From a virus: 52,125 nt of DNA. The position numbers and the translations under genes are program-made. How positions within the stretch are numbered: the first letter of the stretch is position 1; each line of letters begins with the position of its first letter. Positions 2,132-31,661 of the stretch are shown piece after piece. Location of the stretch: positions 1 through 52,125 of the IMG/VR virus record IMGVR_UViG_3300025087_000091; one strand, 5' to 3'. The notes under the pieces were generated by a model, which worked only from the letters and a program-made list of their open reading frames with translations, was not told the DNA's origin and searched no databases.

Positions 2132-3442
2132 GTGAGTAAGACAGCTGATTTAACGAAGATTTTTTATCCTTACCAAAAAGCATTCATAGCTGAGACAGCT
2201 AGATTTGTATTATGGATAGCATCGAGACAGATAGGCAAATCATTTGGTTTGGCAGCCAAGTGTGTTGGTTACGCTATGAAGAAAGAGAACGCGATACTGA
2301 TATCAACTAACCAGCGCAATGCGCAGAGATTAATTACTACGTGCAAGAAGATAATAAAGATATTTGAGATAGCTAGTAAACAGAAGATAGCCTTGGTACG
2401 TGATAATGCTTCGACCATTGAGATTAAGGGTGGAGGAACGATCCAGAGCATTGCTAATAATCCCGATACGGCTGTAGGCGAAAGCGGTCATCTTTTTATA
2501 GATGAAGCAAGCAGGTTCAAGAATTCAGAACAGATTTTAGATGCTGTTATGCCTTTTATTACGAGAAACAATTATTCGATGACGTTAATTAGTACGCCAT
2601 TAGGCAAACGTGGTATGTTTTGGGATTTTTATAATAAGGCATTGAATAACGAAGGTGGCTGGAAGTTACATAAACATACAGTTTATGATGCTATTGAGCA
2701 AGGTTGTCCGATTAATGTTGAAGATATCAGGGCTAATATGGATGAGATATCTTTCAGGCAGAACTATTTATGTGAATTTATTGATGATATTTCCAGTTAT
2801 TTTTCTTATGATCTTATTTTATCGGTAATAAATCACGAACTTTATGACCACGATATTACGGAACTGAAAAAGAAAGACAAGACACCTAAAATCGCTGGTT
2901 ATGATCCAGGCAAGATAATTGATTCAGGAGTATTTACGGTAATCGATAGGGATATTATCAGTCAAAAAGTTAGGTTACTGCACATAAAAGAATTTTTGAG
3001 AATTGATTATTCCGAACAGATATCCTATATCGTAACGGTCATTAAGTCGGCTGGTATAGCTAAATTGTATGTAGATGCTACAGGTGTAGGTGTAAAGATA
3101 GCAGAGGATTTGAAGAGGGAACTTGGAAGTGTAGTAGTTCCGATAACTTACACCAATGCTGTTAAGGAAAGCTTAATAACTGAATTGAAGTTAAGGATGG
3201 AGCGGAGGGAGATAGAAATACCTGATCATTCGAAGCTAATTGATCAATTACATAGGATAGAGCGTACGACAACAGCAAGTGGGTTAGCAAGGTATCAACA
3301 TCAAGTAGGTCAGCACGATGATATTGTTTTTTCGCTTTGCAATGCGGTATCCGGTTTCTCTTTAGGTGCTAGATCGGGAATAAGGTCATTTAGTATCAAG
3401 GACTTTTTCCTTAACAGGACTCGATGCACTGATTTTATTTAA
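2132..3442 (+). CDS. terL: Terminase large subunit
   Basis: A 436-residue DNA-packaging motor with both expected domains. The ATPase domain shows a Walker A-like SRQIGKS (31-37), Walker B LFIDEA (121-126) and the STP coupling motif (154-156). The RNase H-like nuclease domain shows acidic residues in AGYDPG (D258), VDATGVG (D315) and QHDDI (D396, D397). The Mu-like portal and head genes downstream suggest kinship with Mu gp28-type terminases. It opens with GTG and has no obvious ribosome binding site, so the true start could be a little different. No small subunit is seen beside it. It translocates DNA into the prohead and cuts the concatemer. Confidence 0.93.
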   Translation: MSKTADLTKIFYPYQKAFIAETARFVLWIASRQIGKSFGLAAKCVGYAMKKENAILISTNQRNAQRLITTCKKIIKIFEIASKQKIALVRDNASTIEIKGGGTIQSIANNPDTAVGESGHLFIDEASRFKNSEQILDAVMPFITRNNYSMTLISTPLGKRGMFWDFYNKALNNEGGWKLHKHTVYDAIEQGCPINVEDIRANMDEISFRQNYLCEFIDDISSYFSYDLILSVINHELYDHDITELKKKDKTPKIAGYDPGKIIDSGVFTVIDRDIISQKVRLLHIKEFLRIDYSEQISYIVTVIKSAGIAKLYVDATGVGVKIAEDLKRELGSVVVPITYTNAVKESLITELKLRMERREIEIPDHSKLIDQLHRIERTTTASGLARYQHQVGQHDDIVFSLCNAVSGFSLGARSGIRSFSIKDFFLNRTRCTDFI

Positions 3443-3504
3443 TTCAATTTGAGATATTCTTTTGATAACACTAACACCACCACCTAAAAATATTCTAACA
3501 GCAA

Positions 3505-3520
3505 GATATCGATAAATAAA
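3505..3520 (+). promoter_or_regulatory. ATATCGATAAATAAA element before portal gene
   Basis: GATATCGATAAATAAA lies in the 114-base gap between terminase and portal and is a one-base variant of the GAATACCGATAAATAA element at 6795. Position before a gene block suggests regulation. Confidence 0.3.
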
Positions 3521-3556
3521 CCTAGTTTGCGTTAATCGCTTCCAGGAGGACAAATA

Positions 3557-5860
3557 ATGAAATTTTTAGGATACGAAATAAAGAAAACTGCTAAGGAAAC
3601 TGCCAATCCGAAACCCAATACTGAACGAGAATCAACAATAATCACTCCATATCGTCATCAGACTTATAGATTACCAAAGAATCCAGATGATGTAGTTTAT
3701 AAGGATGGCAGTCTAAAATCTTATTATGAGATGTTAGCTGATCCGCAAGTAAAGAATGCTGCTGATTTCAAGAAGAATTTAATTTTAGGTAAAGGCTGGA
3801 AAATAATTAACCCAAAGGATTCTAAGGGCAAAGAGCTAGAAGAATATTCGGAAATTAGGGAATTCATTTATGATTGTTTTACTGATTATTACGCCGGATC
3901 AATAGATGATGATTTTTTCAATATTCTTTCAGCACTGGAATTCGGTTATTCCGTATCCGAAATTGTTTATAGAATCGATAAAGATATGACTAGATTAGAT
4001 TCGATAAAGCAAGTGCCAGCTGATTCAATTGAATTTAATATTGATGAAAAAGGAAATTATATCAATGAGCAGTTAACGCAATGGTCAAGCAAGGGCAAAT
4101 TGACTCTTGATTTAAAGAAATTTGTTATTCTTAGCTGGAACAAAAGGGATGGGAATCCTTATGGTGTAGCAGATTTACGATCCTGTAGAAACGCTTGGTT
4201 TTGTAAGCAGCAAATTCAAAAGTTTTGGAATATTTATCTTGAGCGTTTTGGGATGCCATTTCCAATTATAAAATATAGCAAGTTAACTGATACTACCACA
4301 TTATCAAATATGGAATCAATTTTGACAGCGATACAAGCCGGATCGGCGGCAATAATCCCCGAAGATTTGATGATTGAATTTATCGATGTATCAAGGTCAG
4401 GGCAGGCGGCTTATGATCAAGCAATTCAAAGGCATAACCAAGAAATACTAGTTGCTTTCGGAATCCCTGATCTAATGGGCTTTTCGGGCACTAAGGGCGG
4501 TTCTTATAATTTAGGTGATGTACAAAGCTCCTTAATGATTTCGCAGAATTTGAGGGCGCAAAAGAGCTTTCAAGAGATATTGAACGAGCAATTAATTAAG
4601 CGGTTAGTTGATTATAATTTTACAGGTGTAAAGAAGTATCCCCGAATAGAATTTGAATCGGCGATACAAGATAACGATATCGAGAAAGCCAGAACATATA
4701 TTTTGGCATTGCAGACGGTTACATTTAAGCCTTCGGTAGACGCCATTAATAGACTGCACGAGATGTTGGGGATGCCGGTATCCGAAGATGTTGAAATAAT
4801 TGATAGGCAACTAGGACAGGATGTTGATAAGAATTTAAAGAAAGACGTTCCCGAAGACACCAAAGAAGAAGATGTTAAGCCATTTGCTTATCAATCAGAC
4901 GAAAAAATATTATTTATGGATAGGAACACTGATTTTATAAAAGTTGATAAAGAATTTAGAGAAAAGACTGATAAGGCTATAAGGGTTATTAACAGCTTAT
5001 TAACAAGTTCTAAGTTTTCTTTGTTGGAAAAAATCAGAGCAACTGATTTAAAGAAAAATCCTGATTTTGCTAATAGAATCACAATAGAGAATATGCCTAA
5101 TATCAACACGGCTTTGGAGCGGATGTTATACTCAATTGCACTTGAGGGAATCTCTGACGGAAATACCGAAATTGAAAGGCAAATACCGAAGCGGTTTGAA
5201 TTAGAGTTTTCAAGAGAAGTATTAGTAGAAGATATCGAAAGCGCAATAGAAAAGTTTGCATTGAAAGATATCCCCAAACTAGATTCAGTAAGTGCAAAAG
5301 AGTTCTTGAAGAGTTTCGCTAAAACCAAAGCATTTCAGTTAACAGATGATCTAAAAAATACAATCAAGAAGAAAACCAGGCAAATACTCCTACAGGGTTA
5401 TGACGAAGGTTTAACACCAAAAGAAATAATGTCGGATATTGAAGAGGTCTTTTCACCCTATATTGAGGGAAATATTTTGCCGGATCAAGCAATTGCGCCT
5501 TATAGGCTTGAAAATATCGTAAGAACAAACGCTAACAACCTTTACAACCTTGGAAGGTTAGCAAGCTATGAAGCATCAGCCAGAAGGGGCTTACTGACTC
5601 ACTACCAATATTCTGCGACACTTGATAATAGGACTTCAACCATATGTATGGAACTACACGGAACTGTTATTCCGGCTAATGATGGGGCGATGCTAAACGC
5701 TATTAAGCCAAGCCGTCATTTTAATTGCAGATCGATTTTGATTCCGATTACCAAGTACGAACAGGAAGAGCTAAAGCAGAAAGTTGACGAGGGCATTTTG
5801 AAAACTAAACTGAGTCATCCAAATGATTGGTATGACGGTTTTACATACCAAAAGCGATGA
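3557..5860 (+). CDS. Portal protein fused to Mu gpF-like minor head protein
   Basis: A 767-residue fusion. Roughly residues 30-420 are a Mu gp29/DUF935-type portal protein, which forms the dodecameric ring at the head vertex. The C-terminal part (about 560-767) is a Mu gpF-type head morphogenesis domain, marked by DNRTSTICMELHG (about 688-700) and the following HFNCRS (about 720). In Mu the two are separate neighbouring genes. A hydrophilic, charged linker joins them. An AGGAGG site lies 8-10 bases before the ATG. The stop overlaps the start of the phosphoesterase gene by four bases (ATGA). Confidence 0.92.
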   Translation: MKFLGYEIKKTAKETANPKPNTERESTIITPYRHQTYRLPKNPDDVVYKDGSLKSYYEMLADPQVKNAADFKKNLILGKGWKIINPKDSKGKELEEYSEIREFIYDCFTDYYAGSIDDDFFNILSALEFGYSVSEIVYRIDKDMTRLDSIKQVPADSIEFNIDEKGNYINEQLTQWSSKGKLTLDLKKFVILSWNKRDGNPYGVADLRSCRNAWFCKQQIQKFWNIYLERFGMPFPIIKYSKLTDTTTLSNMESILTAIQAGSAAIIPEDLMIEFIDVSRSGQAAYDQAIQRHNQEILVAFGIPDLMGFSGTKGGSYNLGDVQSSLMISQNLRAQKSFQEILNEQLIKRLVDYNFTGVKKYPRIEFESAIQDNDIEKARTYILALQTVTFKPSVDAINRLHEMLGMPVSEDVEIIDRQLGQDVDKNLKKDVPEDTKEEDVKPFAYQSDEKILFMDRNTDFIKVDKEFREKTDKAIRVINSLLTSSKFSLLEKIRATDLKKNPDFANRITIENMPNINTALERMLYSIALEGISDGNTEIERQIPKRFELEFSREVLVEDIESAIEKFALKDIPKLDSVSAKEFLKSFAKTKAFQLTDDLKNTIKKKTRQILLQGYDEGLTPKEIMSDIEEVFSPYIEGNILPDQAIAPYRLENIVRTNANNLYNLGRLASYEASARRGLLTHYQYSATLDNRTSTICMELHGTVIPANDGAMLNAIKPSRHFNCRSILIPITKYEQEELKQKVDEGILKTKLSHPNDWYDGFTYQKR

Positions 5861-6336
5861 ATTACTGGGTAATTGCAGATACGCATTTTGGTCATGAGAA
5901 AATAAAGCAATCAAATAATAGACCGGATAATTTTGAGGAGTTAATTTTAGAAAATTTAAAAGCCAAAATAAAAAAAGATGATGTATTAATTCATCTAGGT
6001 GATTTTTGTTTAAAAGATGATCTATATTGGCACAAAAGATTTTCAGAGATTGAGTGTAAGAAATGGTTGATTTTGGGCAATCATGATCATAAAACAATGA
6101 GTTGGTATTTAAGTAATGGCTGGGATTTTGTTTGTAGTCATTTCACATTAAAATTATTTGGTGAATATATTTTGTTTTCTCATACTCCGCAGGAAAATAC
6201 GTCTATTATCAATATTCATGGACATTTACACGATTCTAATCACAGAAAAGGTTATCTTCTAACTGAAAAGAATATTTTAGTATTGATAGAAGGAACATTC
6301 GAGCCGTGCTTATTACAAAAAATTATTAAAAAATAA
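5857..6336 (+). CDS. Calcineurin-like metallophosphoesterase
   Basis: A 159-residue protein with the full metal-binding set of the metallophosphoesterase fold: ADTHFGH (7-13), GDF (48-50), GNHD (74-77), SHT near 108 and HGHLH (121-125). Family members hydrolyse phosphomono- or diesters with two metal ions. Small single-domain members are common in phage genomes and the substrate cannot be predicted. It is translationally coupled to the portal fusion by an ATGA overlap, an unusual position within a head module. A role with the RNA ligase in nucleic-acid end repair is possible but unproven. Confidence 0.88.
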   Translation: MNYWVIADTHFGHEKIKQSNNRPDNFEELILENLKAKIKKDDVLIHLGDFCLKDDLYWHKRFSEIECKKWLILGNHDHKTMSWYLSNGWDFVCSHFTLKLFGEYILFSHTPQENTSIINIHGHLHDSNHRKGYLLTEKNILVLIEGTFEPCLLQKIIKK

Positions 6337-8531: not shown

Positions 8532-8692
8532 TGATGACTAGAGATGAGTTTATTAATTGGTATATTTCATCTACTAAAATGGATGAAGAGAAGGCTAATA
8601 GTTTTTTTTCAGAATGTGAAATTATAAAATGTACGTGTTCAGATTCTAATTGTAGGGGATGGGCAATGACACCAAGAAGAGAAGGAGTTTGA
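8531..8692 (+). CDS. Small Cys-rich protein
   Basis: A 53-residue protein with C-x-C-x5-C-x-G-W near its end (residues 34-44, CTCSDSNCRGW). This resembles short phage proteins that carry a CxC...CxGW signature, perhaps a metal site. It starts at the first of two consecutive ATGs, overlapping the previous stop by one base, and overlaps the next gene in another frame. Function unknown. Confidence 0.5.
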   Translation: MMTRDEFINWYISSTKMDEEKANSFFSECEIIKCTCSDSNCRGWAMTPRREGV

Positions 8693-8901
8693 ATTTGTTA
8701 TCCGAAGAGGAACTTGATAAAATTTCTCTATTATTGGAAAAAAATAATAAATCGCTCATGAATGATTTTCGGGTTTGGGCTTCCGATGTTTTGGTTTTCC
8801 AGAAGGAATTTTCTGATTTGAGACAAAAGATTTACGGGATATTTTACGCGTTTGGTTTTGTCGGTATTCTTTTTGGAATAGTGGAGTTTTTTGTAAAATA
8901 A
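8659..8901 (+). CDS. Small protein with C-terminal membrane anchor
   Basis: An 80-residue protein with a charged helical N-terminal part and one transmembrane segment at about 61-79 (IFYAFGFVGILFGIVEFFV). The layout, coiled helix then one membrane span, recalls XhlA-type haemolysin/holin accessory proteins, but the lysis genes lie elsewhere and the match is only architectural. An AAGGAG site at 8682 may favour a TTG start near 8695 instead. Confidence 0.5.
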   Translation: MGNDTKKRRSLNLLSEEELDKISLLLEKNNKSLMNDFRVWASDVLVFQKEFSDLRQKIYGIFYAFGFVGILFGIVEFFVK

Positions 8902-8969
8902 TGGCAATAAAAAGAGGTGGAACTTCATATCATTTTCAAAACTTTTTAGCTTTGGTATTAGTTAATTAA
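8901..8969 (+). CDS. Possible 22-residue peptide
   Basis: A very short frame starting on the last base of the previous stop (TAATG) and ending 17 bases before the next gene. Coupling is the only support; it may be chance. Confidence 0.2.
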   Translation: MAIKRGGTSYHFQNFLALVLVN

Positions 8970-8986
8970 AAGAAAAGGAGTTTAAT

Positions 8987-9757
8987 ATGTCATTCGATCT
9001 GAATGAAAAAATTGGTCTAATTAAAAACGAAACGTTGGAAAATCTTAGAGATTCTTATTATGTAGAAAACCTAATAATGAAAATCGGTATATTTGGCGGG
9101 AAACCTAACCAAATTCCGGAGTTTTTGAAGCCATTTTTCGGCGGTTTAAATTTATGGCAAAACCCCAACCAGTTAGCAAAATTTCTTGTCCTCTTATCTA
9201 ATTATAGAATTAGAAGTTATGCTGAAATAGGCGCTTATTTTGGCGGTACATTTATAACCATTTGTGAATACCTAAAACGCTTCAATTTTGACTTTCAGAA
9301 AGCTTACGCTATTGATCCAAATTCCTATTATGTCGGCAGTGATATGGCAAACAAAAAGAGTTTATTAGATGAATATATTATCTATAATTCTGATATTAAT
9401 AGAAAAATAGCTGAAAGAAAAAAGCACAACGAATTCGAGTTTGATTTTAAGTCAATGAAAGCTAAATCAGCTGATGCCTTTAAGGCAATGAAAGAAGATC
9501 ATATTGATTTTGTTTTTATAGATGGAAATCACGATATAAAAAATGTCTTAGAAGATTTCGAGAATGCACGCAAGTTAAATGCTAAAATAATTGCTATTCA
9601 TGATATCAATAGCGTTTGTGATGATTCTTGGAAAAAAATAATTAAAGATTATAGCAAAGATTATGATGCAAAAGAAATTCGGGATATTTATTCAGACAAG
9701 TACAACTATTTTGGTTTCGGAATAATGATCAAAAAAGGGAAAGAGGTTAAATCATGA
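8987..9757 (+). CDS. Class I SAM-dependent methyltransferase
   Basis: A 256-residue protein with SAM-binding motif I EIGAYFGG (80-87), an acidic residue after the next strand (YAIDPNS), and the FVFIDGNHD segment (175-183) followed by IIAIHDI. This is the pattern of Methyltransf_24-like enzymes, often found in sugar or cell-surface biosynthesis clusters. An AAAAGGAG site precedes the ATG. It opens a tightly packed cassette with a cytidylyltransferase and a second methyltransferase. Substrate unknown; a sugar is more likely than DNA because DNA-methylase signatures are absent. Confidence 0.75.
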   Translation: MSFDLNEKIGLIKNETLENLRDSYYVENLIMKIGIFGGKPNQIPEFLKPFFGGLNLWQNPNQLAKFLVLLSNYRIRSYAEIGAYFGGTFITICEYLKRFNFDFQKAYAIDPNSYYVGSDMANKKSLLDEYIIYNSDINRKIAERKKHNEFEFDFKSMKAKSADAFKAMKEDHIDFVFIDGNHDIKNVLEDFENARKLNAKIIAIHDINSVCDDSWKKIIKDYSKDYDAKEIRDIYSDKYNYFGFGIMIKKGKEVKS

Positions 9758-10041
9758 GAAAGGTATTGCTTTTTTGTTTTATACTTTTATTTTTTATGAA
9801 TAACTTAAATGCCTTTGATTACAAAAATTTAACTGTTCTGAAAAAAATTTCAAATTCGCAAAACGTTGATGTTTACACAATAGAAAGGACTATATTAATT
9901 TTTTATGATTTAGGGGAATCTGTTTTAATAGAACAAAGGATATCCCTGTGTCCTACTTATGGGGATAATCTAGGTTCTGTCCATTCCAATATATTGATCG
10001 TGCCTAAATCACAGATAGAGAAAAATAGGGATTTGGAGTGA
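9754..10041 (+). CDS. Secreted or periplasmic small protein
   Basis: A 95-residue protein with a typical signal peptide: MRK, a hydrophobic core (VLLFCFILLFFM), then a likely cleavage after LNA (about residue 21). The mature part is about 74 residues with two cysteines at most and no known domain. ATGA overlap couples it to the methyltransferase, and a GTGA overlap couples it to the cytidylyltransferase. An exported protein inside a late phage cassette suggests action at the host envelope, for example superinfection exclusion; that is inference. Confidence 0.6.
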   Translation: MRKVLLFCFILLFFMNNLNAFDYKNLTVLKKISNSQNVDVYTIERTILIFYDLGESVLIEQRISLCPTYGDNLGSVHSNILIVPKSQIEKNRDLE

Positions 10042-10799
10042 AAACAATTATTTGTATAGCGGCACGTATGAACTCTAAAAGATTACCTCAAAAATCAATT
10101 CTTAGAATACAAGAGATGGAAACTATTAGAATATTAATAAGAAGAGCAAAGTTATCAAAAAAAGCAGATAAAGTTATTCTTTGTACATCTTCAAATAAAG
10201 AAGACAAAATATTAATAGATATAGCAAAAGAGGAAAACATAGATTATGTAGCTGGAGATGAATTAGATGTCATGGAAAGATTTTTATTAGCGGCTGAAAA
10301 ACATAATGCTGATATTATTGTACGTGTTACTGGTGATGATGTTTTATTTGATCCTTTGATTGCTGACAAGATGATTGATTATACGATTAATAAGGACGCT
10401 GACTATTGCTATTCTGAGGGATTACCAAAGGGCGTTGAATCAGAAATTATAAAGGTAGAAGCATTGAAAAAAGCATACATGTTAGCAGAAGATACTTCTT
10501 TAAGTGAATATATGACCTATTACTTAAAAAGATCAGATATTTTTAAGATCGAATGTCTTTCCTTTAAAGATGAATATGAAGCATTAGACGGTGTGAGGTT
10601 AACATTGGATTATCCCGAAGATTTTGAATTATTAAAAGTTGTTTTTAATGCTTTTCAGTTAAATGAAGAGAAAAATATTTTATTTGATACCGAAAAATTA
10701 AATTGTCTTTTTAAAGCGGAACAAAGATTGAAGAAGATGAATACAAATATACAAAGAGAAAACAAACCTATTTTAGAAATAAAATTCAGAAAGGAATAA
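10038..10799 (+). CDS. SpsF/NeuA-like cytidylyltransferase
   Basis: A 253-residue sugar-nucleotide synthetase. The N-terminal nucleotide-binding loop is ARMNSKRLPQKSIL (9-22) and VRVTGDDVLFDP (95-106) holds the metal-binding acids. This matches SpsF, NeuA and KdsB-type CMP-sugar synthetases, which activate acidic sugars by transfer to CTP. The GTG start is required, because the first downstream ATG would delete the first strand. It overlaps the upstream stop (GTGA). In bacteria such genes serve spore-coat, flagellin or surface glycans; its presence here suggests glycan modification by the phage. Confidence 0.8.
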   Translation: MKTIICIAARMNSKRLPQKSILRIQEMETIRILIRRAKLSKKADKVILCTSSNKEDKILIDIAKEENIDYVAGDELDVMERFLLAAEKHNADIIVRVTGDDVLFDPLIADKMIDYTINKDADYCYSEGLPKGVESEIIKVEALKKAYMLAEDTSLSEYMTYYLKRSDIFKIECLSFKDEYEALDGVRLTLDYPEDFELLKVVFNAFQLNEEKNILFDTEKLNCLFKAEQRLKKMNTNIQRENKPILEIKFRKE

Positions 10800-10823
10800 T
10801 GATCAGAAAAGGTGTTTAAATCA

Positions 10824-11264
10824 ATGATTATAAATATTTTTTGGAAAATATATTATTTAATTTTTAATAGAATAAAACTGAGTTTAAACTGCACGGTTGA
10901 AGGAGAATATACTCCTTATAAATTTAACACTGATAATAAATGTAAACTCTTATTAAATGGGAAAGAACCTTATTATGCGATTAAAGCTGAATTAGAAAAA
11001 GTTAATCCAGCATTGACTATTTTTGTTGCTGAACGAGTGGGATATATGACTTTAGAATTAGATACTATTGCAGGTCATAGTGTATGGTTTTTAAAATATA
11101 CTAATACTATTAATTTTACGCTTATGGATTTGAATACATTTGTCAGACTAAAAGATTTTCTTAAAGTATTACATCAGCTTTTAAATTCAAGGAGATTCAG
11201 AAAAGAATTATATCTTAATAAAAATATATCAAATCAATTATTTGGAGACGGAATTAGTATTTAA
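10824..11264 (+). CDS. Hypothetical protein in sugar cassette
   Basis: A 146-residue protein of unknown function. Residues 2-20 are hydrophobic with a basic flank and could be a membrane anchor; the rest is mixed alpha/beta. An AAAGGTG site suits the ATG at 10824, while a GTG at 10812 is possible. It lies between the cytidylyltransferase and a methyltransferase and probably belongs to the same pathway. Confidence 0.5.
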   Translation: MIINIFWKIYYLIFNRIKLSLNCTVEGEYTPYKFNTDNKCKLLLNGKEPYYAIKAELEKVNPALTIFVAERVGYMTLELDTIAGHSVWFLKYTNTINFTLMDLNTFVRLKDFLKVLHQLLNSRRFRKELYLNKNISNQLFGDGISI

Positions 11265-11287
11265 AAAGAAAGGAACAACGTTAAAAA

Positions 11288-12247
11288 ATGAAATTATTTA
11301 CAGATGCCTACGACATGTACATTCGTGCTCAAATTAATGATATTAAATTGTTTAAACCTGGCACCATTGGAATAAGCTATTTTGAAGTAAATCCAGGAAT
11401 TTATGTTTCCTCGGGATTAGTTGATGGCGAAAATAATTATAAAATTTATCAGATTCTATTCGATAAATCAAAATATACATTTAACACAATAAAAAAATGG
11501 TTATTAGAAAATAAGGGCGATATCTGGGATGAGCAAACCGTTAACTTTTCAAAGGAAAAAGAAGTAATTATTTTTGATAAATTTGAAGATATTGGAAAAA
11601 CAGATAAGTTATCAAAATTAAAAGATGATGAACTTATAAATTTAGCTAAAAGATTGAATGACTTCTGGAAAAATATAGAGGAATATAATCATAAAATAAA
11701 TAAAAATGCTGTTATTGATAGTTTTAGCTTCGTGAAAAATGAGTTAAATAATAGAAAGGTCGATTTAATTGATGATTTACAGATAACCGATGCAAAACTA
11801 AAACGGCTTGATCTTGGCTGTGGTGAAATAAAAAAAGAGGAGTATGAGCAAATTGATATTAAAGATTTCGGCTACAATAAAAAGCATGATCTTAACTATG
11901 GGATTCCAGAATCTAATAATAGTTTTGATATTGTTAACGCTGATTTTTTTCTTGAATACGTCAAAAACGAAGCACGAGTCAGAATAATAGAAGAAATTAA
12001 TAGAGTATTAAAGCCAGGAGGTTTATTTATCTTCAAATCAGAGTCAACAGATGGCAGAGGTGCATTTCAGGATTTAGAAACAAATTCGTTATGGAATGAA
12101 AATACTTTTCGGTATATTGCTAAAGAATTTAAGGAATTTTCTTATTCCGGTTTTAAATGCGATATGGAAATTCTTGATCTAAAAACAGAGTACAATCATA
12201 AATACAAAACTGCTGTTGTCAGCGGTATTTTGAGGAAAATAAAATGA
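11288..12247 (+). CDS. Two-domain SAM-dependent methyltransferase
   Basis: A 319-residue protein. The C-terminal half (about 170-319) is a Methyltransf_11-type domain with motif I RLDLGCGE (about 173-180), SFDIVNADFFLEYV after the third strand, and RVLKPGGLFIFK near 236-247. The N-terminal 165 residues form a separate unknown domain, perhaps substrate recognition. An AAAGAAAGGA site precedes the ATG. An ATGA overlap links it to the next gene. It is the second methyltransferase in the cassette. Confidence 0.72.
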   Translation: MKLFTDAYDMYIRAQINDIKLFKPGTIGISYFEVNPGIYVSSGLVDGENNYKIYQILFDKSKYTFNTIKKWLLENKGDIWDEQTVNFSKEKEVIIFDKFEDIGKTDKLSKLKDDELINLAKRLNDFWKNIEEYNHKINKNAVIDSFSFVKNELNNRKVDLIDDLQITDAKLKRLDLGCGEIKKEEYEQIDIKDFGYNKKHDLNYGIPESNNSFDIVNADFFLEYVKNEARVRIIEEINRVLKPGGLFIFKSESTDGRGAFQDLETNSLWNENTFRYIAKEFKEFSYSGFKCDMEILDLKTEYNHKYKTAVVSGILRKIK

Positions 12248-12474
12248 GTGAACTTTTTGATAAGTACAAAAATAGAATATTTGAAGAGCTGGAAAGCAAA
12301 GGTCTTCTTGATAAAGAGTTAATAGATGAATTTATATGGCTACCACTCGTTCAGCGCAGAGAAGAACCATTAACTAACTATAATATATGCGTTTGTTTAA
12401 AGGATAGAAAAACACATGAAATTTCCTTGTTTTCTGCTAGTGATATATTGGATATTGATATCAATAAAATATGA
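12244..12474 (+). CDS. Small hypothetical protein
   Basis: A 76-residue acidic protein (FDKYKNRIFEELESKG at the start) translationally coupled to the methyltransferase by ATGA and to the next small gene. No motif recognised. Confidence 0.5.
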   Translation: MSELFDKYKNRIFEELESKGLLDKELIDEFIWLPLVQRREEPLTNYNICVCLKDRKTHEISLFSASDILDIDINKI

Positions 12475-12608
12475 AATGGATATATTGCGATAATTGCGAG
12501 AAAACTAGTTTCTATTTTGAATCTTACGTGGATGCTATAAACCCTAAAAATATTGAAGAGTTAAATTGGGATGGCTGTGAGAATTGTCATCCCATAACTG
12601 AATTCTAA
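12471..12608 (+). CDS. Small zinc-ribbon-like protein
   Basis: A 45-residue protein with CDNC at residues 6-9 and CENCH at about 38-42, a spacing suited to one zinc ribbon. ATGA overlap with the previous gene. It closes the cassette; a long gap with an ATACCGATAA element follows. Confidence 0.5.
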   Translation: MKWIYCDNCEKTSFYFESYVDAINPKNIEELNWDGCENCHPITEF

Positions 12609-12710: not shown

Positions 12711-13970
12711 GTGCCTATTAATAAAGCATTTAATCAAGAATTTGAATACTCTTTTGAATTAGATGAATCAGAAGAGGATTCTAAAAAAGAAAATAAAGAA
12801 TTGCCAAAAATGAAGAAACCAAAACTTTATAAAATATGTGGCGTGGAACTCTTTAAAGCTGGTTTCCACAACGGAAAAGAATACTCCGAACAAGATATTG
12901 ACGAAATTATAAATAATTTTTCTGGATTAAAAAAAGAAAATCCTAATTTTAAATTACCAATAAAAATCGGTCATAAGATGAAAGACGGAGCTCCTGCAAT
13001 TGGGTGGTTTGAGAACCTTCGAAAAGTTAGCGGAAAGCTCGTTTGTGACTTTGTTGATGTAGCCGAACCTGTAGCAAAATTTATCAACTTAAACGGATTA
13101 AAAAATAGATCAATTGAGATGTATGAAAACTTTGTTAATTCTGCTGGTGAAAAAGTAGGGAAAGTATTGAAAGCCGTTGCCCTATTGGGAGACACAATGC
13201 CTGCTGTAAACCTATCGGATATTCAGGAATTAAATGAATTAGGAAAAGCAATCTATGGTTCAGCCTTCGAAGGCGAACAAGATTATATTTCAATAAAATT
13301 TTCAGATATAAAGGAGGATAAAGAAATGTTACCAGAAAAAAAAGAAGTTGAATCTAAAGATGAAACTCAAGAGTTTAAAAAAGAAGAGTTTAAAAAAGAA
13401 GAGTTTAAAAAAGCTGAACAACCTGTTCGAAAATCAGAAAATGAAGAAATTAAAGAGATTGTAAATAAATTCTCAAAGAATCCTGAGGAGGTTCTTAAAA
13501 CATTATCAGAATTCAAGAAAACGGAGTCTGAATATAAGCAATTTATGCTTAATTATGTAGATGAAAAAAAGAAAGAAAAAGAAGCGAAAATCAAAGAATT
13601 CACTTCTAATCTAATTAAGGAAAACAAAATCTATTCTGCGGAAAAGAATATCGTTGAAACATTGCTTTCTTCGGCAAATGATTTTTCCGAAATTGAATTT
13701 TCTTATTCGGAATTTGATGTAATTAAAAAATCAACTAATTTTGAAATATTAAAAGATTTTCTTTCTAAATTGCCCGATCGTGGCTTGTTAAATCGCGAAT
13801 CTTCTGATTCCGTAAATTTTGATTACAATACCGCCGTTTTGGCTTTTTCTAAGAAATTAGGTTTTCAAAATATTGGAAGACAGGAAGATTTAAGCGTTTC
13901 TCAATTCAAGCAGGTCATCTCAGCAATGGCTAATGATCCTAAAGCATCTAAATTCGTTAATAAAAAGTAA
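12711..13970 (+). CDS. Prohead protease/scaffold (Mu gpI-like)
   Basis: A 419-residue protein. Residues 37-185 resemble Mu gpI-type prohead proteases: PIKIGH with H88, APAIGWF, then RSIEMYENF with S134 and LKAVALLG (153-160), the H...S arrangement expected of such serine proteases. The second half is highly charged, coiled and contains repeated EEFKK blocks (about 222-235), as in scaffolds. It starts at GTG behind a GGAGG site. A second ribosome site inside the gene can produce the scaffold alone, as with Mu gpZ. The decoration and major capsid genes follow directly. Confidence 0.82.
   Translation: MPINKAFNQEFEYSFELDESEEDSKKENKELPKMKKPKLYKICGVELFKAGFHNGKEYSEQDIDEIINNFSGLKKENPNFKLPIKIGHKMKDGAPAIGWFENLRKVSGKLVCDFVDVAEPVAKFINLNGLKNRSIEMYENFVNSAGEKVGKVLKAVALLGDTMPAVNLSDIQELNELGKAIYGSAFEGEQDYISIKFSDIKEDKEMLPEKKEVESKDETQEFKKEEFKKEEFKKAEQPVRKSENEEIKEIVNKFSKNPEEVLKTLSEFKKTESEYKQFMLNYVDEKKKEKEAKIKEFTSNLIKENKIYSAEKNIVETLLSSANDFSEIEFSYSEFDVIKKSTNFEILKDFLSKLPDRGLLNRESSDSVNFDYNTAVLAFSKKLGFQNIGRQEDLSVSQFKQVISAMANDPKASKFVNKK
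13311..13317 (+). promoter_or_regulatory. Internal ribosome binding site
   Basis: AAGGAGG sits inside the protease gene, eight bases before an in-frame ATG at 13326 (codon 206). It is as strong as the sites of the major structural genes. Confidence 0.65.
13326..13970 (+). CDS. Scaffold protein from internal start
   Basis: A nested in-frame product of 214 residues beginning MLPEKKE, covering only the charged scaffold half of the protease-scaffold gene. The preceding AAGGAGG and 8-base spacing are optimal. Phages of the Mu and lambda types make a separate scaffold (Z, Nu3) from the same frame in this way, giving many scaffold copies per protease. The product is inferred from the sequence. Confidence 0.6.
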   Translation: MLPEKKEVESKDETQEFKKEEFKKEEFKKAEQPVRKSENEEIKEIVNKFSKNPEEVLKTLSEFKKTESEYKQFMLNYVDEKKKEKEAKIKEFTSNLIKENKIYSAEKNIVETLLSSANDFSEIEFSYSEFDVIKKSTNFEILKDFLSKLPDRGLLNRESSDSVNFDYNTAVLAFSKKLGFQNIGRQEDLSVSQFKQVISAMANDPKASKFVNKK

Positions 13971-13984
13971 GGAGTTGAATTAAA

Positions 13985-14398
13985 ATGGGCGTAAAAATTC
14001 CGTATTCTCATCAAGCATCAGTAGTTTTAGGCTTCAATACTGGCGCAGACTTAACAGCTACACGTTACAGAGGCGTGCAATTATATGCATCCAATACCGT
14101 AGACGCAGGAACTGGCACAGCAAACACTTCGCCAGCATTTATGTTTGGCATTCAAACAAGCTTACCTCTTTCAGGTTCAGCACAAGATGTAAATGTTTGT
14201 GTTTTCGGTCCGACAAGAGCAATAGCCGGAGCAGCATTTACATCAGGCATCGCGTTAACTTATCAAACAAACACTGGAAAAGTTATTGCAATTACTACAG
14301 GTACAGCTTTTTCAATGGGTTGGTCATTAGAAGCAGCAACAGCAGACGGCGAAGAAGTAACGATTTTCGTAAATCAAACATTCTTATCATTAAGATAA
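13985..14398 (+). CDS. Capsid decoration/head stabilising protein
   Basis: A 137-residue beta-rich protein, Ala/Thr/Gly rich, with few charged residues, lying directly before the major capsid gene. Size, composition and position match DUF2190-like or trimeric head-stabilising proteins (gpD type). A long conserved-looking segment is GTGTANTSPAFMFGIQT. A GGAGTTG site precedes the ATG. Confidence 0.65.
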   Translation: MGVKIPYSHQASVVLGFNTGADLTATRYRGVQLYASNTVDAGTGTANTSPAFMFGIQTSLPLSGSAQDVNVCVFGPTRAIAGAAFTSGIALTYQTNTGKVIAITTGTAFSMGWSLEAATADGEEVTIFVNQTFLSLR

Positions 14399-14415
14399 TT
14401 AGGAGGTGAATTAAA

Positions 14416-15357
14416 ATGAGCGATAGACATATACCAAGTGCATTACCCGATCTCAGCATAAAACTTTTCCAGGATACTTCGGTTTATAATGCTATTAGTG
14501 TATTAGCACCGATTAAAAAAGTAAGTAAAATTACTGACAAATACTTCATATACGATACAACAGAAGCTTTTAGAGAAGGTTCAACCATCAGAGCAGATAG
14601 AACAGAAGCGAACATGATGAATGCAAAAGCATTATCAACAGCTTCTTATACATTGCGTAATCACGCACAGAAACAATTAATTACTGACCTTGAACGTGGA
14701 AACGCTGATCCTTCTGTTAATCCAGAAGTTGACGCTGTTGAAGAAATAATGAACGTATTGTTATTAGATCGTGAAATTGATCTAGCAAAAAGTTTCTTCA
14801 CAGTAACAGCAATTGCAACTAATAAACAGATTTTGACCTCAAACGCCTGGGATTACGACACGCTAACAAGTGATCCGCTTGTTGATATTGCAGATGGTAT
14901 CAAAACAATTCTGAAATCAAGTGGCAAAAAAGCTAATAACGCACTTTGTGGATACAATACATTCCATTCAGTCTTGAAAAACCATAGCGATGTTCTTGAC
15001 CGTATTAAATGGTCAGAAAGAGGAGTTATCACGGAAGACTTATTTGCTGGATTAATTGGTATTAAAAATTTCGTTGTAAATGAAGTTGTCCGTCAGACTT
15101 TGGCGATGGGAACGTCGGCGACTACAAATTTTGTTTTTGATAACGCATTTGTGCTTACATACAATGATTCTAATCCAAAAATCAGAACTGCTAACTTAGG
15201 TATTACATTCTCCGGTTTTTATGGGGATGCTATACCGGAAGAAACAAGATATCGTGCACCACAACTAAAAGGCGATATCATCGAAATGAACTGGATGTAC
15301 CAGGTGAAGCCAGTAATGACTTTATCTGGATATCTAATCGGTTCAGCACACAGTTAA
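14416..15357 (+). CDS. Major capsid protein
   Basis: A 313-residue protein following an AGGAGGTG site, the strongest in the region. It has the size, order and features of Mu-group HK97-fold capsid proteins: an extended N-terminal arm, a long helix region around 95-130 (DAVEEIMNVLL), and a C-terminal Y-R-A-P-Q-L-K-G strand. The protease/scaffold and decoration genes precede it and the connectors follow it. A strong hairpin follows the stop, as often after capsid genes. Confidence 0.85.
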   Translation: MSDRHIPSALPDLSIKLFQDTSVYNAISVLAPIKKVSKITDKYFIYDTTEAFREGSTIRADRTEANMMNAKALSTASYTLRNHAQKQLITDLERGNADPSVNPEVDAVEEIMNVLLLDREIDLAKSFFTVTAIATNKQILTSNAWDYDTLTSDPLVDIADGIKTILKSSGKKANNALCGYNTFHSVLKNHSDVLDRIKWSERGVITEDLFAGLIGIKNFVVNEVVRQTLAMGTSATTNFVFDNAFVLTYNDSNPKIRTANLGITFSGFYGDAIPEETRYRAPQLKGDIIEMNWMYQVKPVMTLSGYLIGSAHS

Positions 15358-15363
15358 TATTCT

Positions 15364-15391
15364 ACGGCTGGTTTACTCTCTTTCCAGCCGT
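15364..15391 (+). terminator. Hairpin after major capsid gene
   Basis: ACGGCTGG (15364-15371) pairs perfectly with CCAGCCGT (15384-15391) across a 12-base loop. No T-run follows, so it is more likely an RNA-stabilising or attenuating hairpin than a full terminator. The 112-base gap around it contains no credible gene. Confidence 0.6.
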
Positions 15392-15469
15392 GGGATACCC
15401 CACAACACCGCTAAAAGAGAGATAATTTTTTTATGAAAAATCAAAACAAAAGAGAGAGATGAGGAACGT

Positions 15470-15820
15470 ATGAAAATTAAAATGATTGGCTATAAGCGAA
15501 CTGATAAATACGGCAGGTTGGAACACGGACATATTTATGAGTTAGAGACCAAAGATGCAGAAGAATTAGTTAATCAGAAAGAAGCCGAAGCGATTTTTGA
15601 TAAAAATATTAAAGCAATGCGGACACTTGATCAACAAATAGAATATGGTAGAACAGAGCTTTTGAAATACTTCAAAAGTAAGAAGAAATTTAAAGAGCGT
15701 GTAATTGAAGCAACTAGTAACAATGATAACAATTTAGATGCCATTAAAGCGGCAAGTCTATTTGGATTTAACAAAAGAATCGATGAATTGGAAAAAATGG
15801 AAAAAGTAAAGGTTAAATAA
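15470..15820 (+). CDS. Hypothetical protein, head-tail region
   Basis: A 116-residue charged helical protein (K/E rich), beginning with a short beta segment MKIKMIGYKRTDKYG that recalls small head-completion proteins. It lies between the capsid and gp36-like genes. Function unknown. Confidence 0.55.
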   Translation: MKIKMIGYKRTDKYGRLEHGHIYELETKDAEELVNQKEAEAIFDKNIKAMRTLDQQIEYGRTELLKYFKSKKKFKERVIEATSNNDNNLDAIKAASLFGFNKRIDELEKMEKVKVK

Positions 15821-15822
15821 GA

Positions 15823-16326
15823 ATGGGAACTTATTGTACAACATTAAGCTGGCTTCCTTCTACTGGTGTTCAATCCCATTTGTTTATGGGCTTGTCTTCT
15901 AGCGTTATTTCAACAGCAACTCTAGTAACGATGATTTCCAGGAAAGAAAGATTAATTGAAAGTTATCTATCCAAAAGATATACCGTTCCATTAACGGCGT
16001 CGGCTATGGTAACCGGAATTGTTGAAGACTTAGTAACCTTCGATGTTTACCGCTTACTTTTCAATCGGGATGGTGGAATCCAAGAGAATACAAATATCAA
16101 AGAGCGTTACGACATGGCTTTAGCTTGGCTTAATGATTTAAGAGAAGGAAGAGCGGAACTCATAGATGATACTGGAAGCACCATTACGGAAAAATCAGTA
16201 ACAAATAGATATTTCATATCAACCAGAAATTATGTTCCAACTTTTGATGTTGGTGATCCTTTGTCTTGGCGGGTTAGTCCAACACGCCAAGACGATATTG
16301 ATAATGACAAGGAGTCTGACAGTTGA
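15823..16326 (+). CDS. Mu gp36-like head-tail connector (DUF1320)
   Basis: A 167-residue protein matching the DUF1320/gp36 pattern: a helix with E-S-Y-L-S-K-R-Y-T-V-P-L (about 45-56), I-V-E-D-L-V-T-F-D-V-Y-R-L-L (about 66-79), then ERYDMALAWLNDLREG (about 94-109). These are adaptor proteins at the head-tail interface of Mu-like phages. Its stop overlaps the TTG start of the gpG-like gene. Confidence 0.8.
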   Translation: MGTYCTTLSWLPSTGVQSHLFMGLSSSVISTATLVTMISRKERLIESYLSKRYTVPLTASAMVTGIVEDLVTFDVYRLLFNRDGGIQENTNIKERYDMALAWLNDLREGRAELIDDTGSTITEKSVTNRYFISTRNYVPTFDVGDPLSWRVSPTRQDDIDNDKESDS

Positions 16327-16805
16327 TTACTATCAAAATTGAAAGTAAAGAATTGGATAGGGCTTTAGACAGCTTAATGAGTTCTCTTAAGAACACAAAG
16401 CCAGTTATGGAAGATATTTCTAATTTAATGATGAAAGATATCCACGAACATTTCGAGGATGAAAAAGGTGATGAAAACAAAAAGTGGAAAAAATCAATTA
16501 GAGCTGGAATGCAGGGCGGGAAAACATTAACAGATAAAGGCTTTCTAAAAGGCGAACTATTTCAGGAAAGCACTAATACTCAAGCTTCGATTGTTAGCAA
16601 AACAGAATACGCTTCCATTCATAATTTTGGCGGAGTTATTAGAGCTAAAAACAAACCATTTCTAAGATTCAAAATCGGTGATAAATGGTCAAGTAAAAAA
16701 GAGGTTACTATGCCTGAACGTCGTTTTATGTGGATATCTAACAAGAGCATAAATATGATCGTAAATACTATTGCTGAATACATAGAGAGAAGCTGGAGGA
16801 AGTAA
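16323..16805 (+). CDS. Mu gpG-like virion morphogenesis protein
   Basis: A 160-residue tail-completion protein of the phage virion morphogenesis family. The family signatures are KTLTDKGFLKGEL (about 67-79), S-K-T-E-Y-A-S-I-H-N-F-G-G (about 91-103) and the proline-rich M-P-E-R-R-F motif (about 127-132). The TTG start overlaps the preceding stop by four bases. In Mu the homologue acts in tail completion and head-tail joining. Confidence 0.85.
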   Translation: MITIKIESKELDRALDSLMSSLKNTKPVMEDISNLMMKDIHEHFEDEKGDENKKWKKSIRAGMQGGKTLTDKGFLKGELFQESTNTQASIVSKTEYASIHNFGGVIRAKNKPFLRFKIGDKWSSKKEVTMPERRFMWISNKSINMIVNTIAEYIERSWRK

Positions 16806-16808
16806 ATA

Positions 16809-17282
16809 GTGGGAACAACGTTTGATTACAACTCAGCTACAACTGCAATAGTAAAATTCTTGAGAGCTAACTCAACTACTATCGATACAAATCTGTATCA
16901 TTCAGTTTCAACAATTTTAGATTTCAGACCGGATGATTATAAGGTGTTCGGGAACAAGTTCCCTGCAATATCAGTTGATCTAATGTCAAAAACAGAGGAA
17001 AGAGTTGAACTTGGTTTGGGTGCAAATGATAGACCAATAATTAATTGTACTTTCAACATTGGTTGTCATATCAATAATTTTGCTAGTTATACAGCAGCTT
17101 ATCAATCAATGAGAACTTTAGTTAGTAATGTGGAGGCGGCAATTAGATCAGATGATACAATTTCGGGAACTTTTGCGCTAGTAAATATCGAATCTGTTGA
17201 ATTTGGAAATATCATTGAGGGTAAAAATGGGGTTCTACAGAAAAATGGTCTTATAACGCTTAATACGGTTAGTTATATATAA
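16809..17282 (+). CDS. Tail terminator-like protein
   Basis: A 157-residue alpha/beta protein starting with GTG three bases after the gpG-like gene. Size, gene order (connector, gpG, this, then tube and tape measure) and the central K-F-P-A-I-S-V-D strand fit tail terminator or minor tail proteins that cap the tail tube. Assignment rests mainly on position. Confidence 0.6.
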   Translation: MGTTFDYNSATTAIVKFLRANSTTIDTNLYHSVSTILDFRPDDYKVFGNKFPAISVDLMSKTEERVELGLGANDRPIINCTFNIGCHINNFASYTAAYQSMRTLVSNVEAAIRSDDTISGTFALVNIESVEFGNIIEGKNGVLQKNGLITLNTVSYI

Positions 17283-18186: not shown

Positions 18187-18423
18187 ATGACCATAGTTTA
18201 TAAATATAAGAACAAGGAAACATTCGCAATAATAAATCAGCAAAATGTTAATATAACTGCTGATAGTTATCAGATTTTTGATAATTTAAGCGAAGAAAAA
18301 GAAAATCTTTTATTAAGTACAGGTAAGTTTGAACGTGTTAAAAAAGTAGTTGAGGAAGAAAAACCAAGAAAAATAAAAAGAAACGAGGAGGTAAACGACA
18401 ATGACAATATTAACAGGGTTTAA
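18187..18423 (+). CDS. Small protein before tail tube gene
   Basis: A 78-residue protein with a beta-rich start and a very charged C-terminus (VEEEKPRKIKRNEE). An AAGGAG site precedes it. Its last 23 bases overlap the tail tube gene, whose ribosome site lies within it, so the two are translationally linked. Function unknown. Confidence 0.5.
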   Translation: MTIVYKYKNKETFAIINQQNVNITADSYQIFDNLSEEKENLLLSTGKFERVKKVVEEEKPRKIKRNEEVNDNDNINRV

Positions 18424-19408
18424 AAGTTCATTAGGGTTCAAAGAATTAACTAGCACATCTTTAGTTACAACTGATCCAGTGGAATTTGTTTATGTAGATA
18501 ATTTCAAGTTTAATAGGGATCAAAGTATTTCTCAACTTGATGAGGTTGGAATTCAAGGGCGGGCAAAAAAGCGCATGATGTTCGGGGATATTAATGCAAC
18601 AGGTTCGTTTACAAAAAATATTGATACAGAAAACGGAATAGCACTTTATAAATATATTATTGGCGGATCAGTAACAACGGCAAGTATTGGAAGCGGAACT
18701 TTTACACATACATTTTCCGAATCTGACGAAGTATTAGAAGCTGGCGGAAAAGTAATGCGTCTTCAATTCACAACAAATCTGGGCGGACAAACTGGAACTA
18801 GCCGTATTTGGTGGAATGGAATTGTTGATAGCTATTCATTGAACTGCGCTAATACTAACGATGTCGCTAAAGAAACTATCAACTTAAAATTTTCTGATCA
18901 CGGATCATTAATTGCAAATACCATGTGTGCTGTTTCGCTAACTCAAGTTAATCCAATTGTTGGTAGAAAAGTAACCATCAAACTTGGGGCTACAATCACT
19001 GTTGTTTCTGTAACTGTAGCCAAAAATATCAATTTTACAATCAACAATAACGTTAAAGAAAGCAGAGAGTTGAGCGGGACAAATACGGTTAAAGACTTTC
19101 AGTATGGCGTTAAGGATATCTCCGGATCATTTGATTTAACATTTGATAGCCATGGTGCTTATGACAATTTCGTTAATAATACCTCGGTTGCTATTCAAGT
19201 AAATTTATTAGGCGATTTAACTACAAGCGGAACTGTCCATTCTATCAGTTTCAATTTTCCTGAATGCTATTACACCGGATCACATCCAGAAGTTGCTGGA
19301 ACTGGTCAATTAACACTGCCTATAAAATTCGTTGCTAACTACGGATCAAACGCTGGTTATCAAGTAAATGTTCAGGTCGTTAATTCAACTGGAACTTTAG
19401 TTATTTAA
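18401..19408 (+). CDS. Major tail (tube) protein
   Basis: A 335-residue beta-rich protein with abundant Thr/Ser/Gly, a GAGGAGG site upstream, and the usual place before the tape measure gene. Segments such as RAKKRMMFGDINATGSFT and KDISGSFDLTFDSHG are typical of tail tube beta-sandwiches. Its length suggests an added C-terminal domain. Hexameric rings of this protein form the siphovirus tail tube. Confidence 0.75.
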   Translation: MTILTGFKSSLGFKELTSTSLVTTDPVEFVYVDNFKFNRDQSISQLDEVGIQGRAKKRMMFGDINATGSFTKNIDTENGIALYKYIIGGSVTTASIGSGTFTHTFSESDEVLEAGGKVMRLQFTTNLGGQTGTSRIWWNGIVDSYSLNCANTNDVAKETINLKFSDHGSLIANTMCAVSLTQVNPIVGRKVTIKLGATITVVSVTVAKNINFTINNNVKESRELSGTNTVKDFQYGVKDISGSFDLTFDSHGAYDNFVNNTSVAIQVNLLGDLTTSGTVHSISFNFPECYYTGSHPEVAGTGQLTLPIKFVANYGSNAGYQVNVQVVNSTGTLVI

Positions 19409-19435: not shown

Positions 19436-19708
19436 ATGTTACAGACACTATTTTATTTCTTTGGAATTTGGTTTTTCTTAGCAACATTAGATTTAATTAA
19501 TTTGAAGACTTTTTTGATCTTATTAATTTATGTAATTTTGCATAGTTTTTATCAAACAATTAAATACTATTTGAAGATATCAAAAAATAAGAACGTCGTT
19601 ACTAATTCAGTTCGGGATACAGTAGCAAAAGCCGTTGCGAAAGCGTCAACCAACCAGGAATATATTGATAAATTTTATGATCAAAATTATAAAAAATACG
19701 AAAAATAA
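19436..19708 (+). CDS. Small membrane protein before tape measure
   Basis: A 90-residue protein with a long hydrophobic N-terminal half (about 3-45, one or two membrane spans) and a helical charged tail. In this slot siphoviruses usually encode tail-assembly chaperones, often with a frameshift; the membrane-like start is unusual and no slippery site is evident. The stop overlaps the tape measure start (TAATG). Confidence 0.5.
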   Translation: MLQTLFYFFGIWFFLATLDLINLKTFLILLIYVILHSFYQTIKYYLKISKNKNVVTNSVRDTVAKAVAKASTNQEYIDKFYDQNYKKYEK

Positions 19709-31278: not shown

Positions 31279-31619
31279 CCTTTTTTCTCCTCATTTTTTC
31301 TTTTAATATTTTCAGACATTTTATCGAAGGAATTCTTTGCATAATTTGATGATTCTAGAGGTTTCTGATTTTCTTTTAATATAAGTGATTCTATAAGTTC
31401 AGTATATTTTTCCTTTAGACTAAAAAATATTGGTAATATTGGAATAAGTTTAAAATAAAAATCTTTTCTCGATTTAATTTGTGAAGTATTCATAAATAGA
31501 ATTAGATACTGGACTATTAATACCTCAATTATCATAGCAACAGCAAATTCTTCGTTTGTAAGCGTTTGTCCGTAATTAGTTACTATCATTGATGATATCA
31601 AACAACTTGAAATCAACAT
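31275..31619 (-). CDS. Membrane protein
   Basis: A 114-residue protein with hydrophobic segments at about 1-14 and 27-44 and a third weaker one near 56-67, then a charged tail. An ATGA overlap joins it to the glycosyltransferase, so it may anchor or assist that enzyme. Function unknown. Confidence 0.5.
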   Translation of the reverse strand: MLISSCLISSMIVTNYGQTLTNEEFAVAMIIEVLIVQYLILFMNTSQIKSRKDFYFKLIPILPIFFSLKEKYTELIESLILKENQKPLESSNYAKNSFDKMSENIKRKNEEKKG

Positions 31620-31628
31620 TTTTCCTCT

Positions 31629-31661
31629 CTATTCTAAAGTTTTATAGTAATCAACGCTCAT
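31629..31661 (-). CDS. Possible 10-residue leader peptide
   Basis: A 10-codon frame (MSVDYYKTLE) that overlaps the preceding stop as ATGA, with a GGGAGGA site upstream. It ends just before the ribosome site of the membrane protein. It could serve translational coupling; support is slight. Confidence 0.25.
   Translation of the reverse strand: MSVDYYKTLE

Follow-up and report, generated by a model that had tools for sequence, protein, structure and literature searches.

A Maf-like transferase kept beside a tail gene and a sugar-activating cassette among head genes suggest virion glycosylation in a lineage of uncultured phages

In this report, we focus on the late operon of an uncultured tailed phage, record IMGVR_UViG_3300025087_000091 of IMG/VR, whose 52,125 bases (the record may be incomplete) were analysed in full and are called the window hereafter. 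We propose that this operon encodes the O-glycosylation of the virion: an SpsF-type cytidylyltransferase would activate an ulosonic acid of the host, a Maf-like transferase would put this sugar on a structural protein, most likely that of the tail tube, and one or both of two S-adenosylmethionine (SAM) methyltransferases, named here MT_A and MT_B, would add methyl groups. We give this reading a probability of about 0.5. It draws on the identities of the genes, the intact active site of the cytidylyltransferase, the Maf-type fold of the transferase, its position beside a tail gene and the ulosonate synthases found in relatives. More generally, the phages of this lineage probably sugar-coat their own particles, because an acidic-sugar-activating enzyme and methyltransferases stand among the head genes and because the Maf-like gene is kept beside a tail gene throughout the lineage.

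The Maf-like transferase

The protein that would transfer the sugar (coordinates of all genes are in Table 1) scores 61.9 bits for the PF01973 domain, against a cut-off of 34.6. A structure model of it, made from eight relatives (predicted local distance difference test, pLDDT, of 83), superimposes on Maf, PDB 5mu5, over 246 residues with a Z of 21.5 and a root-mean-square deviation of 3.4, the alignment covering positions 233-514 of Maf only. The profile search also placed Maf first (2.2e-6) and archaeal HPPK second (0.0021). Archaeal HPPK (MptE) was considered as the best match and rejected, since Maf is the stronger one both by sequence and by fold (Z 15.4 for HPPK). Other matches of the model are weaker still, with SteA at Z 11.6 and the sialyltransferases CstII and ST8SiaIII at Z ~9, a level also reached by thiamin pyrophosphokinase. 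Several positions are near-invariant (D81, K82, D101, K151-D152-N153, N175, D199, K216 and N239), and this set of Asp, Lys and Asn residues resembles an active site. We call the protein Maf-like rather than Maf because the outer domains of Maf are missing and because its NCBIfam PseD score, 21.8 bits, is far under the cut-off of 670.

Maf enzymes attach CMP-activated nonulosonates (CMP, cytidine monophosphate) to flagellin, namely CMP-legionaminic and CMP-pseudaminic derivatives, and the Clostridium botulinum Maf also takes CMP-Neu5Ac and CMP-Kdo (PMC11339370). Judging from its sequence and its model, the Maf-like protein is likely to be the transferase partner of the cassette described below. 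Its gene has no tblastn match in GenBank phages; predicted viral structures labelled MptE-like do exist.

Placement beside the tail gene across the lineage

A search with the aligned relatives of the Maf-like protein returned 33 viral records, or 34 with the window, a few of them near-duplicates. In every record that could be read on both sides of the gene (32 of 32, the window counted), it has the inferred tail terminator gene on one side and the inferred tail tube gene on the other, two labels that are based on position and on PHROG 290. As these first records had been found through the Maf-like gene itself, the capsid protein was used as a second bait. It gave 25 loci, of which 19 extend past the tail terminator, and all 19 carry the Maf-like gene at that place; five records with the gene were new (L113, L117, L130, L131 and L133). 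Across the relatives, identity to the window ranges from 28 to 51% for the Maf-like protein, from 24 to 47% for the capsid protein and from 16 to 50% for the tail tube, so that conservation of the Maf-like protein is close to that of the capsid protein and exceeds that of the tail tube. The transferase is a core gene of this phage lineage. The inferred tail tube protein is also the richer of the two structural proteins in serine and threonine (21%, vs 16% for the capsid protein).

A sequence-only reading of positions 8987-12608 had left open whether the sugar acts on the virion or on the host envelope, and this lineage-wide placement points to the virion. It is rather unlikely, in our opinion, that, in the infected cell, the sugar genes alter the host envelope (lipopolysaccharide, capsule, S-layer or flagella), for instance as a barrier to superinfection, with the Maf-like enzyme modifying host proteins such as flagellin. 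Genes for SpsF, methyltransferases and glycosyltransferases are indeed typical of surface-glycan islands, and some phage enzymes are known to alter nonulosonate capsules of the host (PMC12053666, PMC6586298). The enzymes studied here, however, are encoded in the late structural operon, the annotated genes of the window include no flippase, polymerase or membrane-anchored glycosyltransferase, and the transferase remains beside the tail gene where the other sugar genes differ or are missing.

A scan of a genome collection gave a single match, on a 4-kb contig of a Phycisphaerae bin that is probably a phage fragment. Two phage-like contigs, L013 and L017, belong to one Phycisphaerae bin, one with the Maf-like gene and a tail tube gene and the other with a fusion of a cytidylyltransferase and a family 2 glycosyltransferase (GT2). 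In record L010, two tandem tail tube-like genes follow the Maf-like gene (14306-16384), and three tandem copies of a small gene stand ahead of the capsid gene (8638-9979).

The cytidylyltransferase and its cassette

The single-domain SpsF-type enzyme of 10038-10799, CYTIDYLYLTRANSFERASE, looks active. It scores 83.5 bits for CTP_transf_3, against a curated cut-off of 22.6, over residues 5-215, which is the whole domain, and its match in the PDB, 6oew, is labelled 'cytidylyltransferase'. R10, R15, K19 and D100 are kept in 42 of the 42 rows of the alignment and S13 and P17 in almost every row, and D191 is invariant in the five phage copies. In characterized enzymes, cytidine triphosphate (CTP) and magnesium are bound by Arg12 and Lys21 (CMP-Neu5Ac synthetase) and by Asp98 and Asp225 (K-CKS) (PMC2901514), and D191 would be the counterpart of this Asp225.

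The best identity of the enzyme to any relative found is ~37%. Among the bacterial relatives, neighbouring genes include pseG/pseH/pseI, NeuB-family and DegT genes: plasmid-borne copies in Peribacillus and Priestia stand among pseudaminic acid genes, and those of a cyanobacterium and of Methylomagnum stand with NeuB-family genes, while others are found in different sugar operons. Its only relative in GenBank phages lies in a single gene row with DegT-like and NeuB genes. In the tree, the phage copies group with one long-branched bacterial row (99/97, and 97/84 with wider sampling), a grouping that leaves a common phage origin unproved, since composition is biased, branches are long and sampling was narrow (mostly from one phylum).

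The enzyme is part of a cassette (8987-12474) that the sequence-only reading had described as a CMP-sugar synthetase-like enzyme, two methyltransferases, an exported protein and small unknowns, translationally coupled between head genes. The synthetase, both methyltransferases, the small proteins and the location, with the portal-MuF gene upstream and the head maturation protease downstream, were all recovered in our analysis, and the family scores are not explicable by chance. Export of the 95-residue protein is plausible, though not proved, from its charged N-terminus and its single hydrophobic stretch (maximal 17-residue Kyte-Doolittle value of 2.04, at residues 4-20). Translational coupling fits three of the five junctions, which are 4-base overlaps (9754, 10038 and 12244), but not the other two, which are gaps of 12 and 23 bases; a clear Shine-Dalgarno sequence precedes only some of the starts. 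GC content at third codon positions (GC3) is 0.15-0.28 in the cassette vs 0.23-0.35 in the remaining late genes, a weak sign of recent acquisition except for the 150-residue protein and the cytidylyltransferase (0.201). The Maf-like gene lies outside the stretch covered by that reading, further along the operon, and so do the glycosyltransferase and the zinc-ribbon methyltransferase of the other strand (30139-33144).

Variable sugar genes and their partners in relatives

The sugar genes are optional in the lineage. Among the 33 records, seven carry a CTP_transf_3 gene, three a NeuB gene and four a gene of the DAHP-synthase family above cut-off. This last enzyme (PF00793) was considered as KdsA and rejected, its NCBIfam and PDB matches being nearer to DAHP synthase. 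A synthase of either family is present in six of the seven CTP_transf_3 records vs one of the 26 others, and this sole record, G311, has an apparently truncated copy of a cytidylyltransferase fusion at its contig end. Over the 34 records, the co-occurrence of cytidylyltransferase and synthase has a Fisher p of 1.4e-4. When only the records of at least 20 kb are considered, a cytidylyltransferase is present in 8 of 12 and an enzyme of the NeuB or DAHP-synthase family in 7 of 12. These condensing enzymes of the relatives strengthen the acidic-sugar reading.

Several distant relatives share a recurring block near the terminase, made of a radical SAM/SPASM protein, a cytidylyltransferase-GT2 fusion, an epimerase, a synthase and a zinc-ribbon methyltransferase. 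The zinc-ribbon methyltransferase of the window belongs to the same group (BLASTP 9e-12 to L054; 2.6e-12 with a hidden Markov model of six relatives) and adjoins a glycosyltransferase gene, so the window holds scattered parts of a set that the relatives keep together. Fusions of the cytidylyltransferase-GT2 type were seen in L015, L016, L017, L108, L109 and L110, mostly beside radical SAM/SPASM proteins.

Several points weigh against our proposal. The window record has no ulosonate synthase, the phosphoenolpyruvate-condensing enzyme (PF03102 and PF00793 are both absent), and so encodes no complete pathway, only an activation step, for which the host would have to make the sugar. The acidic-sugar pathway of the sequence-only reading is thus retained in its activating enzyme, which keeps its catalytic residues, and in the condensing enzymes that relatives add, but not as a pathway complete in the window. 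Of the three-domain architecture of Maf, the phage protein has the central domain only, without the N- and C-terminal ones, and its fold is also used by pterin and thiamin pyrophosphokinases. In the 12 records of at least 20 kb, the co-occurrence described above is not significant (Fisher p of 0.22), and it may be due in part to record length. The closest relatives, L002, L003 and L005 (capsid identity ~45-47%), have no cytidylyltransferase in their available sequence, two of the three being short fragments. Finally, virion glycosylation is predicted here from genes.

The same three relatives bear on a finding that would speak against the sequence-only reading, namely relatives that lack the cassette and have no partner genes either, and this is borne out only by half: the cytidylyltransferase is missing, but all three retain the Maf-like transferase, and each retains one or more methyltransferase genes or the N-terminal domain of such a gene (MT_B in L002 and L003, MT_A in L002 and L005). 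The third gene of the L002 cassette (4050-4526) was considered as a relative of the 150-residue protein, and no relation was found.

We regard as unlikely a reading in which the Maf-like protein is a tail-assembly factor or another enzyme of the same fold, such as a pyrophosphokinase, and in which 8987-12474 is a set of unrelated acquired genes. A tail chaperone would also show the strict linkage to tail genes, the fold is common to archaeal HPPK, thiamin pyrophosphokinase and SteA at the Z values given above, and many records with the Maf-like gene show no further sugar gene. Against this stand the near-invariant residues, arranged as in an active site, the first rank of Maf by both sequence and fold, and the relatives that pair the Maf-like gene with cytidylyltransferase and ulosonate synthase genes.

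The two methyltransferases

MT_A has homologues in the same genomic region of L002 (33-37% identity) and L005 (35%), and MT_B is 37-38% identical to its homologues in L002 and L003. That the methyltransferases and the cytidylyltransferase would serve DNA or nucleotide modification instead of protein glycosylation is very improbable. Phage glycosyltransferases that decorate DNA are said to be common (Pyle 2024, as cited in PMC12619734); the cytidylyltransferases of this family, however, act on sugars, neither MT_A nor MT_B matched a DNA methyltransferase family of Pfam or NCBIfam (their PHROGs labels are weak and mixed), and we noticed no gene for base hypermodification in the window.

The first ~90 residues of MT_B (11288-11560) match the N-terminus of the L005 head protease (hhalign 98.8%, BLAST 4.5e-13), a protein (3181-5079) in which this shared domain is followed by a ClpP-type domain (ClpP 1.2e-36). 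In the L003 homologue of MT_B (782-1732), SAM motif I is broken, LGVP replacing LGCG. This homologue is perhaps a methyltransferase domain turned structural. Taken together, the domain in common with the L005 protease and the broken motif of L003 suggest that MT_B may act on or in the head. It is possible, if doubtful, and compatible with virion glycosylation, that MT_B is mainly a head-assembly protein, with its N-terminal domain docking in the prohead like that of the fused protease and its methyltransferase domain either decaying or methylating a head protein. The shared domain and the L003 copy speak for this, while the SAM-binding motif is intact in the window and in L002, and the structure model of MT_B (pLDDT 57.6) is too poor for use.

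Proposed mechanism and known systems

We infer from these data the sugar and its acceptor, a CMP donor for the transferase, what the methyltransferases could do and what the benefit could be. In the first step, the SpsF-type enzyme would use CTP to activate a 3-deoxy-ulosonic acid that the host provides. The Maf-like transferase would then move the activated sugar, in the cytoplasm and before assembly, onto a freshly made structural protein, as Maf does on flagellin; judging from the order of the genes, the tail tube protein is the first candidate acceptor. MT_A and/or MT_B would methylate the sugar or the protein, and may cap the sugar. Such a coat might protect the virion or affect attachment. 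A broader version can be put forward only tentatively, and we hold it at less than even odds: in a lineage of uncultured siphophage-like viruses, the core Maf-like transferase would O-glycosylate the phage's own tail tube with CMP-activated ulosonic acids, as a counterpart of flagellin glycosylation, and would be supplied by an exchangeable cassette for activation, condensation and methylation.

The nearest parallel is that of the Maf/PseD flagellin glycosyltransferases (5mu5 of Magnetospirillum, and the Maf of C. botulinum and Campylobacter), with which the phage protein shares its domain and its fold. Maf acts on the subunit of a tubular filament, and the phage gene stands beside the gene of such a subunit. 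Unlike Maf, the protein is phage-encoded and reduced to the central domain (284 residues vs 632-666), and the likeness is known from sequence and model. The cytidylyltransferase resembles the SpsF-type CMP-nonulosonate synthetases (spsF of Bacillus subtilis, in the CMP-legionaminic acid pathway) in family, length and catalytic residues, and several of its bacterial relatives lie in nonulosonate operons. B. subtilis SpsF is a putative cytidylyltransferase required for legionaminic acid on the spore (PMC7439481). The phage enzyme differs in that the window has no SpsE/NeuB partner and in that it groups with other phage copies, with the caveats given above.

Among phages, mycobacteriophages are reported to have glycosyltransferases whose targets are capsid and tail tube proteins (Freeman et al. 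2023, as cited in PMC12619734 and PMC10877033). Both cases would involve phage enzymes and virion targets that include the tail tube, the target being proposed here from genes. To our knowledge, the mycobacteriophage system uses different enzymes, and we know of no ulosonate synthase, CMP-sugar synthetase or Maf-like transferase in it. Marine virus AG-345-L05 (Kyanoviridae) also has an SpsF-type enzyme, encoded in a row of sugar genes that includes DegT-like and NeuB ones; it differs in keeping condensing and activating enzymes together, in a 149-kb genome, and tblastn with the window protein found no Maf-like gene in it. Our literature search, with subscription papers mostly outside its scope, found no paper that deals with virions carrying ulosonic acids, nor one that deals with Maf-like genes of phages.

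To date, few phages have been described whose particles bear sugar. Since all examined members keep the transferase next to the tail gene, acidic-sugar glycosylation of virions would become directly testable. If our reading is true, a phage family known only as 'MptE-like' would gain a function, and this would suggest that related enzymes coat phage tails and flagella.

Organization of the window

The plus strand carries the late operon, from the terminase through the tape measure, with neck genes and then tail genes after the major capsid protein (Table 1).

Table 1. Genes of the window discussed in this report
Feature	Position	Strand	Evidence or remark
Terminase	2132-3442	+	
Portal fused to MuF domain	3557-5860	+	Portal_Mu 2.1e-56, Phage_Mu_F 6e-13; upstream boundary of cassette
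MT_A, class I SAM methyltransferase (Methyltransf_24)	8987-9757	+	Pfam E 7.5e-11, above cut-off
95-residue protein, N-terminal hydrophobic stretch, possibly exported	9754-10041	+	No Pfam family; no relatives found in loci
SpsF-type cytidylyltransferase (CMP-sugar synthetase)	10038-10799	+	CTP_transf_3 E 2.5e-23; PDB 6oew 1.5e-21
150-residue protein	10812-11264	+	No Pfam family; no relative in loci; lowest GC3 of late genes (0.152)
MT_B, N-terminal ~90-residue domain and C-terminal SAM methyltransferase domain	11288-12247	+	Methyltransf_11 E 9.7e-8, above cut-off
76-residue protein, 4-base overlap with MT_B	12244-12474	+	No Pfam family; weak PHROG match, E 0.0024
Head maturation protease	12711-13970	+	PHROG 976, 1.1e-27; downstream boundary of cassette
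Gene matching head scaffold family	13985-14398	+	
Major capsid protein	14416-15357	+	PHROG 1005, 3e-47
Inferred tail terminator	16809-17282	+	After Neck1/tail completion gene; PHROG 8346 (unknown function); conserved order
MptE/DUF115 Maf-like putative transferase, 284 residues	17310-18164	+	Pfam PF01973 8.5e-17
Inferred tail tube protein, candidate sugar acceptor	18401-19408	+	PHROG 290 (tail) 7.5e-19; directly before tape measure gene
Tape measure	19708-22656	+	
Glycosyltransferase (Glyco_trans_1_2)	30139-31278	-	Pfam 6.3e-20
Zinc-ribbon methyltransferase (Methyltransf_23)	31936-33144	-	Pfam 5.6e-7

The GC content of the record is ~0.33, and no tRNA gene was found in the window. No near-identical DNA exists among GenBank phages, and searches of the viral collection with the single capsid protein or the single cytidylyltransferase as query gave no matches. 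Right behind the portal gene lies a calcineurin-like phosphoesterase gene (5857-6336), with a Pfam match slightly below cut-off. On the minus strand, an RNA ligase gene (1014-1904) adjoins a partial D12-type DNA adenine methyltransferase (538-999). The record ends with a short direct repeat (51869-52125), its final 40 bases being also found ~217 bases upstream.

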